From contig CALKXT010000023.1 in NCBI GenBank assembly GCA_938003685.1, forward strand, positions 1 through 32,600: a DNA stretch of 32,600 nucleotides, read 5' to 3'. Shown here piece after piece: positions 22,031 through 24,243 of the stretch. Below the pieces are notes generated by a model, which was not told the DNA's origin, searched no databases, and saw only the letters and a program-made list of their open reading frames with translations. The position numbers were made by a program, and so were the translations under genes. Each line of letters begins with the position of its first letter. Position 1 is the first letter of the stretch. The stretch comes from an uncultured Sulfitobacter sp. (GTDB lineage: Bacteria > Pseudomonadota > Alphaproteobacteria > Rhodobacterales > Rhodobacteraceae).

Positions 22031-22050
22031 ATTTCACGCTATAGCGAAAT
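22031..22050. terminator. Palindromic hairpin between nusB and the Hint-protein gene
   Basis: ATTTCACGCTATAGCGAAAT contains the perfect palindrome CGCTATAGCG and outer complementary arms. It overlaps the stop codon of the opposing Hint gene. On the plus strand it is followed by CAGTTTTCTTG, so it could end the rib operon transcript. The T-run is short, so confidence is limited. Confidence 0.45.
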
Positions 22051-23235
22051 CAGTTTTCTTGTGTTTTTCAGATGCCTGTGGACCAATTTCTTTTGTAACA
22101 TACGTGTTGGGATCGTACATGCAGGCGCTCCAAAACTGTCAGGATCGACAGCCTCGGGAAAGAGCGTCACAAACTCTTCCCACTTTTCAGAACTAAGATT
22201 TTTTTGCGTCTCAGCGTTCATTAAAAAGCTCTCGGTCGGGGTGCCTTCCGCGAATATTACTTGATGCTTTTTAAAGATCAGATGGAAGTACTCGACGCTC
22301 TCGACACTGCTCTCAACATAAATACCGGGTAACTGTGTCAATCTAATTGCAGCGACAAGAACGGTCATTGACCCGAACATACTATGAGCAATGTTAGATT
22401 TTACGACCATGCGGTGTTGGCGTGAAACAACCAAATCTCGTTTTGGCAAGTCTGAACCCAACGCCCCTGCGCTAATCTGTACCGGGTAGAGCTTTGTATT
22501 CTTCTGGAGTTCATCGGCTTTTACGACCCGACTCATCGTCACAATCAACTCTTGAAAGCCATTATCTTGTGTCAGCACCTTATCGCCTGATTTCAGCGTC
22601 TCAATAGGCACGTCACCATGATCTGTTGTGATCAATGTTCCACGTACGAAACACGTCACACCAGTTGGTACCAAGTCACCCGCGTCCCGCATGGTATCGA
22701 TGTCAGAGTTCCAGCTAAAATCACCAAGCAGACCACCGGACGGGAGGCCAGAGAAATCAACAACCATGGTCGTGTAAAGATCTCCTACCGCAGGACTCCC
22801 TGTCAAATTTACGATCCCAGAATATGTCACGGCTAAATCTCCAGACATAGCTGCGTAGTCGGGTGACACTTCAAAGGGAAAACCATGCAATGAACCGGGC
22901 GTGGACCCTCCAAGAGGATCATCATCTTGAGTGGCCGTCGTATCGAATACTGAACTTGCAGGCTGTAGGTTGATTTCAAGCGAGGTCAGAAGTTTGGTTG
23001 TTGATAACTGATGCCAATCGTAGCCAAAGGACATATCAATGTCTGTGCCGGTAGCTCCGCCAAAGGTATATGGGTCTAATGCGTGCCATGTGAGGACTTC
23101 GGTGGTGCCATCAGCGTAGGTGGCCGTGATCGTGGCACCTTCCAAATCGACGCCACGTGAACTGGTATCGGCACGAATACCATTGACGGATTCATGTGGG
23201 TTTTCGTCAAGCCTAACAATATCAATTGAGGGCAT
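22039..23235 (-). CDS. Hint (hedgehog/intein)-domain protein
   Basis: A 398-residue protein with a recognisable Hint domain beginning at Cys195: VTCFVRGTLITTDHGDVPIE, then LKSGDKVLTQDNG, and further on SRQHRMVVKS with the conserved histidine. Hint domains can cleave or splice the peptide bond before the cysteine. In Rhodobacterales many such proteins lack a Sec signal and are believed to be exported, often by type I secretion. The first 190 residues are beta-rich and aspartate/threonine-rich (LDPYTFGGATGTDIDMSFGYD) and match nothing I know. There is no signal peptide. The C-terminus is basic (KKLVHRHLKNTRKLISL). It is AT-richer than the rib operon. Confidence 0.85.
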   Translation of the reverse strand: MPSIDIVRLDENPHESVNGIRADTSSRGVDLEGATITATYADGTTEVLTWHALDPYTFGGATGTDIDMSFGYDWHQLSTTKLLTSLEINLQPASSVFDTTATQDDDPLGGSTPGSLHGFPFEVSPDYAAMSGDLAVTYSGIVNLTGSPAVGDLYTTMVVDFSGLPSGGLLGDFSWNSDIDTMRDAGDLVPTGVTCFVRGTLITTDHGDVPIETLKSGDKVLTQDNGFQELIVTMSRVVKADELQKNTKLYPVQISAGALGSDLPKRDLVVSRQHRMVVKSNIAHSMFGSMTVLVAAIRLTQLPGIYVESSVESVEYFHLIFKKHQVIFAEGTPTESFLMNAETQKNLSSEKWEEFVTLFPEAVDPDSFGAPACTIPTRMLQKKLVHRHLKNTRKLISL

Positions 23236-23610
23236 TTCTCAAACCACCTTTTACCAGTTTCATTTTGCACAAATCAATTTTGTTTATCGTAAATAAATTT
23301 TTCCGGACGCAGATACCGGCGCAACACGCCAGTTTATGCATCGCCGAAGATGTTCAATGCACCAATGTTGAGGTTCAGGCGTGACGAAGTTAAGGAGTTT
23401 CTAAGGCACCTTTAAGGCTGCGGCAGTGCAAGCGGCATCTTGTGGTGATACTTCAGCTAAGGAGAACGCCGCAATGCGCCCGTTTCACCTATGGCCTACA
23501 GAGGGTGTGGGGGATGTTTGATTTGCGCTTTGCGCACGCACGCACCAGAAAGGCCGGGTATTATCGCTTTGGGCAGCAAGTGTAGCCACTTAGTCTATAT
23601 CAAGTTACAA
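23236..23610. other. Gene-poor intergenic stretch with phased TAAGG repeats and a possible small ORF
   Basis: No conventional gene is visible. TAAGG occurs at 23391, 23402 and 23413 (exactly 11 bases apart) and again at 23458. An AAGGAG (23459-23464) sits 9 bases before an ATG at 23474 that opens a 15-codon ORF (MRPFHLWPTEGVGDV) ending at 23521. A TGCGC-TTT-GCGCA hairpin follows 2 bases after its stop. The left part, 23236-23340, is AT-rich and probably holds the promoter of the Hint gene. Confidence 0.35.
23474..23521 (+). CDS. Possible 15-residue small ORF
   Basis: ATG with a good SD (AAGGAG, 9-base spacing) encoding MRPFHLWPTEGVGDV. There is no plus-strand gene downstream for which it could be a leader. 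It may be chance. It is reported because the SD is strong and a hairpin follows the stop. Confidence 0.2.
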   Translation: MRPFHLWPTEGVGDV

Positions 23611-23793
23611 ATCTAAAAGGTGTGACGGGACCGCACCTGCCGTCCTGTTTTGTATTCCCGGGGACCTGTATGTACAGGTGGGCGCCAGATAAATGAACCA
23701 GGGCTCAGACAGAGCCAGCTCCCTAGGATTTGCTTAAGGCCACTGGAATGTAACATAATACAAACAGGGCAGAACCCGTCACTCCTTTCAGAT
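23611..23793 (-). ncRNA. Candidate structured RNA, family unknown
   Basis: A 183-base segment whose ends are near-perfect inverted repeats. ATCTAAAAGGTGTGACGGG (23611-23629) matches the complement of 23775-23793 at 17 of 19 positions. Inside, CTGC/GCAG and then CCTGTTTTGTATT (23644-23656) pair with AATACAAACAGG (23757-23768, one bulge). The centre holds two small hairpins: ACCTGT-N4-ACAGGT (23665-23680) and GGCTC-N5-GAGCC (23702-23716). The result is a long rod with a branched centre and no coding frame. The minus strand is favoured: TTGCCG (23812-23817), a 17-base spacer and TATCTG (23789-23794) would start RNA near 23782, and the last stem is followed by CCTTTT. The size and rod shape recall 6S RNA, but I could not match its conserved sequence. 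A miniature transposable element is the alternative. Confidence 0.55.
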
Positions 23794-23807
23794 AGGGACG
23801 TGACGGG
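23775..23807. repeat. Alternative pairing partner GTGACGGG
   Basis: CCCGTCAC (23775-23782) is complementary both to GTGACGGG at 23622-23629 (the closing stem of the RNA candidate) and to a second GTGACGGG at 23800-23807 outside it. This allows two exclusive 8-bp stems. The outer hairpin also lies directly after the stop of the SRPBCC gene. Confidence 0.5.
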
Positions 23808-23820
23808 CATCCGGCAAGGC

Positions 23821-24243
23821 CTAGTTTGTGTTTTCGATGATATGGCTGCGCATACGGGTGATGTGATCATCCCAGCCTTTGTCGAGTGCGAGTGTCAGGC
23901 CAAAGGCGTCGACCCCTTGTGGTAGGCCGATGTGTTCAAGGGACAGGCGGGTGCCACCAGCGACGCTGTCCAAGGTCCATTTAACAGTGCTGACCGCATC
24001 GCCCATGGGGCCGACGGTAAAAGTGTATTCTAGATATTCAGGGGCGCGGGCGACCAAGACATCGCCCCAGATCAACTTGTCACCGCTATCGGCGCCAAAC
24101 ATCTCAAGCTTTTTGCCAGCGCTTAGTGGTGTTTTTGGGGCGTGAAACCACGTGGCCAGTTTGTCGGGCTGTGTCAGGTAGTCCCAAACCACCTCGCGGC
24201 TAGCTTGCAGGTAGATGCACTTGCGAATTGTTGTGTCGGTCAT
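23821..24243 (-). CDS. SRPBCC (AHSA1-type) domain protein
   Basis: A 140-residue START/Bet v1-like protein of the AHSA1 group, which has a hydrophobic cavity. Signature stretches are YLQASREVVWDYLTQPDKLATWF near the start, VKWTLDSVAGGTRLSLEHIGLP, and a C-terminal helix GWDDHITRMRSHI. Such genes are very often paired with an ArsR-type regulator, as here: its ATG overlaps the stop of the regulator (24240-24243). It is the last gene of a three-gene operon with a cupin. The ligand is unknown. Confidence 0.92.
   Translation of the reverse strand: MTDTTIRKCIYLQASREVVWDYLTQPDKLATWFHAPKTPLSAGKKLEMFGADSGDKLIWGDVLVARAPEYLEYTFTVGPMGDAVSTVKWTLDSVAGGTRLSLEHIGLPQGVDAFGLTLALDKGWDDHITRMRSHIIENTN

Follow-up and report, generated by a model that had tools for sequence, protein, structure and literature searches.

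A minus-strand rod RNA of a Sulfitobacter-like roseobacter matches 6S RNA just below the Rfam gathering score

6S RNA is an established family of RNAs that dock onto RNA polymerase and damp transcription, and the 6S RNA of E. coli is known to refold upon release. The 6S RNA of Rhodobacter sphaeroides has reportedly been the subject of an earlier paper, and our search of the literature found no paper on 6S RNA in Dinoroseobacter shibae. For Ruegeria pomeroyi DSS-3, one report describes a 6S RNA of 158 nt, detected by RNA-seq and Northern blot, whose level is higher in carbon limitation than in nitrogen limitation (PMC4809877). The ssrS loci of beta- and gammaproteobacteria are described as adjoining zapA, ygfA (FAU1) and EVE genes, in a source according to which SsrS and FAU1 are widely paired among proteobacteria, alphaproteobacteria included (PMC7641849).

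Here we analyse a locus in a 32,600-nucleotide stretch of DNA (the window; contig CALKXT010000023.1) from an uncultured Sulfitobacter sp. An initial annotation had singled out 183 bases between a Hint gene and an SRPBCC gene as an unannotated structured RNA candidate that resembles 6S RNA in size and rod shape. Our analysis leaves us all but certain that the minus-strand rod RNA at this locus is an ordinary 6S RNA, encoded by the ssrS gene of a Sulfitobacter-like roseobacter. It compares with the reported R. pomeroyi RNA (PMC4809877) in its roseobacter origin and in its length, about 160 nt against 158 nt, a likeness that sets a predicted RNA beside a described one. With the ssrS loci described for beta- and gammaproteobacteria (PMC7641849) it shares the RNA family and a dedicated locus, but the roseobacter gene differs from them in lying between nusB and mmcB. 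A Pfam scan of ten proteins of the window showed no homologue of FAU1 or ZapA.

Match to the 6S RNA family

Comparison with the Rfam covariance model of 6S RNA (RF00013, 6S/SsrS), which had been proposed as the way to check the candidate, returned a full-length match. It runs from 23778 to 23624 on the minus strand, covers model positions 1-187 of 187 and scores 45.4 bits (E 8e-8 per genome; E 4.6e-8 in 451 bases). The gathering score of RF00013 is 46.4 bits, so the match fails the cut-off by 1 bit; a default Rfam scan therefore overlooks the 6S gene of the window, hence its unannotated look. Scanned over its full length at gathering scores, the window gave a tRNA as its sole match, a result that would mislead if taken by itself. 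When positions 23400-23850 were compared with Rfam and matches up to E 5 were admitted, RF00013 was the single family found. Across the genome of the window, an assembly that is 84.6% complete, RF00013 matched once, with no second locus. Since the gathering cut-off is a curation limit and no biological feature, the locus is still filed under 6S RNA.

The resemblance to the RF00013 family comprises the full-length minus-strand match, the closing stem, the central bubble, the apical arm and the single copy. Apart from the missing bit, the locus departs from the model in a shorter distal-arm tip, where deletions leave 155 nt to span the 187 model positions; in our reading, this short distal arm is probably the cause of the low score. 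The earlier likening to 6S RNA in size and rod shape was thus right, and the model matches on the strand that had been proposed. What was not borne out is the notion of something new: the element is an already known housekeeping RNA, and neither a miniature inverted-repeat transposable element (MITE) nor a novel RNA class.

Promoter, ends and conserved fold

The region is bounded by the terminal inverted repeat that had drawn attention to it, in which 23611-23629 and 23793-23775 are identical at 17/19 positions; no inverted repeat with up to 3 mismatches arose in 100 shuffles of the window. The CTGC/GCAG pair was likewise found as described, at 23772-23769 / 23640-23637. Over the 183 nt the folding energy of the minus strand is -74.6 kcal/mol (z -4.41), a value reached by 0/200 shuffles, against a z of -2.55 for the plus strand, where 3 shuffles were as good. 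The conserved 163-nt RNA alone has a z of -2.92 (3/200 shuffles as good), and this drop on trimming means that the extreme 183-nt value owes part to the outer 10 bp. The better fold, the conserved promoter and the RF00013 match together mark the minus strand as the correct one. Two program-made open reading frames (85 and 91 codons) run across it.

The promoter suggested from the sequence (TTGCCG-N17-TATCTG) proved to be real. Its -35 element, TTGCCG, occupies 23812-23817 and its -10 element, TATCTG, 23789-23794, both on the minus strand. In an alignment (A2) of 21 of the 57 genus genomes having a DNA match, the window included, the TTG, the 17-base spacing and TANNNT are present in 21/21 members. 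Conservation of both boxes at this spacing places the RNA start near 23782. The conserved promoter was absent from the output of a generic sigma-70 scan, which gave one promoter-like site within the RNA and one terminator-like site; shuffles give about as many.

This start lies inside the inverted repeat, as does the -10 element, so the outermost ~10 bases at both ends belong to promoter and flank. Judged by duplex energies of the 14 bases on either side, pairing continues outward through the -10 box for 9-10 bp in two rows only, those of the window (-12.1) and of G013 (-10.6), its closest relative. In L045 (-10.7), L034 and L053 (-7.5 for both) the added pairing is short and G/C-rich, at 4-5 bp. 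Averaged over the 21 rows, flank pairing was no better than with shuffled partners (60/300 shuffles as low), and with the window and G013 left out 219/300 shuffles were as low. We therefore rejected the outer 10 bp as part of the RNA, as they hold the -10 box and their pairing is not general across the 21 rows. Together with the start set by the promoter, this gives a 6S RNA (ssrS) of about 160 nt at 23620-23782 on the minus strand, whose ends we infer from promoter spacing and the closing stem, with RF00013 and a family model (R1, below) placing it alike. The 183-base span first drawn does contain the RNA, but overshoots it by ~10 bases at either end and includes the -10 box of the RNA itself. 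After the 3' arm comes a short run of U (CCUUUU) in the window, as had been remarked; the other 20 aligned genus members do not keep it as a group. As a separate observation, the 5' arm GTGACGGG (23775-23782) has an exact inverted copy in the promoter spacer, at 23800-23807, which is found in the window and G013 and in none of the remaining 19 aligned rows.

The fold of the RNA, read on the minus strand, begins with a closing stem in which the 5' arm GUGACGGG (23775-23782) pairs with the 3' arm CCCGUCAC (23622-23629). The 5' side of the central bubble, AGUGGCCUUAAGCAAAUCCUA (23724-23744), was placed by the Rfam alignment and contains a UGGCC that is invariant in 39/39 rows. The 3' side carries the hairpin ACCUGU-ACAU-ACAGGU (23664-23679), with 94.9% of cells paired over 39 rows, and the apical arm GGGAGCUGG...CUGGCGCCC (23680-23723) ends in a covarying tip hairpin. 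These 39 distinct rows (alignment A3) combine the window with 8 genus relatives and the best 30 of the RF00013 matches from 176 family genomes; as the best-scoring matches were chosen, the alignment leans to sequences that fit RF00013.

The compensatory changes that the initial annotation had proposed to look for are present in the stems. In A3, a structure of 36 pairs has 89.0% of its cells paired, compared with 84.8% in shuffles, and 55 cells changed on both sides, compared with 14.7 +- 3.2; sliding the structure by 1 to 3 columns leaves at most 55.0% paired and 21 both-side changes. Pairs with a both-side change number 11 against 7.1 in shuffles (1/500 as high); further pair types were no more numerous than in shuffles (94/500 as high; 159/500 in a second covariation run). 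An alignment of 53 sequences fitted to the model (A4), a procedure that leans towards the structure, has 112 both-side changes against 27.8 +- 4.4 in shuffles. The bulk of the signal comes from the apical hairpin, where 4 of 6 pairs have both-side changes, seen in 6, 7, 8 and 10 of the 39 rows.

A3 aligns the closing stem poorly, with 72.1% of cells paired, and covariation of this stem is clear only in the model-fitted A4, where 87.2% of cells are paired and 6/8 pairs have both-side changes; for the CUGC/GCAG pair, the paired fraction in A3 is 75%. RNAalifold run on A3 gives the apical arm together with the hairpin on the bubble's 3' side; it did not return the closing stem, and paired the 3' closing arm with GUGGC of the bubble rather than with the 5' arm. 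A second helix, GGCC/GGUC (23741-23738 / 23666-23663), has 100% of cells paired and excludes the ACCUGU/ACAGGU hairpin. The RNA thus has the make-up of a 6S rod, with a closing stem and an apical stem-loop on either side of a large central bubble and with compensatory changes, for which the evidence is strongest in the apical arm.

Genomic setting and rival readings

We compared the gene neighbourhoods of 20 relatives (10 of the genus and 10 of other genera), mostly on long contigs and 12 kb each. Each of nusB and mmcB is present in 18/20, and in the 16/20 that have both, these two genes flank the 6S gene, which is on the strand opposite to nusB. In the genome of the window, a Hint_2-domain gene (22039-23235, minus strand) sits between nusB and the 6S gene. 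No Hint gene occupies this place in any of the 20 relatives (0/20), and other genus members have 11 full-length relatives of it (63-75% identity), all at a distance from the 6S genes there, which suggests a moved gene.

Within the genus Sulfitobacter, 57/58 genomes have exactly one RF00013 match each, that of the window counted, and 37/58 score above the gathering score, the best with 60.2 bits. A DNA-similarity search over a sample of 98 genomes found the element in 56/57 other genus members, the exception being G016. The same element had no match in a phage collection and one in a plasmid collection, on a 1.58-Mb replicon of Pseudorhodobacter turbinis. This plasmid-labelled replicon carries a 6S gene (42.7 bits) along with ribBA-ribH-nusB (L193, NZ_CP039965.1, 1503882-1512084), and so holds apparent core genes.

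These data bear on what else the region could be. The terminal inverted repeat, at 17/19, is what one might take for the ends of a MITE; the outer part of that repeat is not generally conserved, however, and it is the inner stems that covary. Many copies per genome had been named as the sign of such an element, and the candidate survives this check, since the genome holds one copy. Moreover, 55/56 matching genus relatives have one DNA match (G031 adds one 66-base piece), and the location from nusB to mmcB is kept in 16/20 relatives, so that we regard a transposable element here as extremely improbable. A novel class of structured RNA that is like 6S RNA in shape alone is equally improbable: it would account for a score beneath the gathering cut-off and for 155 nt in place of 187 model positions with the distal-arm tip deleted, but it sits poorly with a full-length RF00013 match at E 8e-8 per genome, with same-genus copies that pass the cut-off at up to 60.2 bits, and with the lack of any other 6S match in the 84.6% complete assembly.

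The third reading makes the region a terminator or 3' untranslated structure belonging to the ArsR and SRPBCC genes, a pair whose final stop codon ends at 23821. The two genes are on the same strand as the RNA, 38 bases separate the SRPBCC stop from the inferred RNA start, and a few U residues follow the stem. Yet the SRPBCC gene adjoins the 6S RNA in just 2/20 relatives (L092 and L095), the RNA carries its own conserved promoter, and conservation does not extend to the U-run; we consider the chance that this reading is correct to be negligible.

Presumed function and detection across Rhodobacteraceae

By analogy with described members of the family, the RNA of the window would bind the RNA polymerase holoenzyme with the housekeeping sigma factor, its central bubble imitating a melted (open) promoter, and would damp transcription as nutrients run low. 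Polymerase may then copy the 6S RNA into a short pRNA, upon which the RNA would be released. The 5' side of the bubble, AGUGGCCUUAAGCAAAUCCUA, whose conservation is the one observation here that bears on polymerase binding and pRNA synthesis, is the presumed open-promoter mimic and putative pRNA template, with a start predicted near 23737-23736 from E. coli data. The conserved helices on the bubble's 3' side, either of which excludes the other, would fit a refolding at release. A more ambitious proposal, that roseobacter 6S RNAs form a short-armed subclass in which the near-invariant exclusive helices ACCUG/CAGGU and GGCC/GGUC act as a release switch with a tuning unlike that of E. coli, strikes us as speculative and improbable.

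Beyond the genus, detection depends on the model. We built the family model R1 from 39 of these 6S sequences, that of the window among them; it matches the window at 23782-23620 with 168.5 bits, a score that includes the contribution of the window's sequence to R1's alignment. In a sample of 198 Rhodobacteraceae genomes, 22 had no RF00013 match under the stricter filters applied to large samples, and R1 recovered 11 of the 20 listed among these 22 where RF00013 was silent. Sampled across the class, 136/190 genomes match R1, the window's own included. In G016, the lone genus member without an RF00013 match, R1 found nothing.

A rescan of seven loci against Rfam under permissive filter settings gave four RF00013 matches below the cut-off (L197, 45.9 bits; L196, 44.2; L193, 42.7; L194, 42.4). 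The other three, all from Rhodobacteraceae (L184, L185 and L195), had no RF00013 match at E 0.01 and score 150-163 bits with R1. The Rfam model is thus a poor detector of 6S RNA in Rhodobacteraceae. No 6S RNA was found by either model in G111, G130, G155, G165, G210, G251, G253, G254, G258 and G016, and these genomes may reflect absent sequence, divergence or true loss. Two genomes have two 6S-like matches each, G105 (on C260 and C266) and G436 (on C74 and C114), which may be duplicate genes or mixed assemblies.

For the family as a whole, RF00013 matches 176/198 sampled genomes (E up to 0.001) and exceeds its gathering score in 45/198. The default Rfam threshold for 6S RNA therefore loses most of the Rhodobacteraceae copies, and a missing 6S annotation in this family says little.
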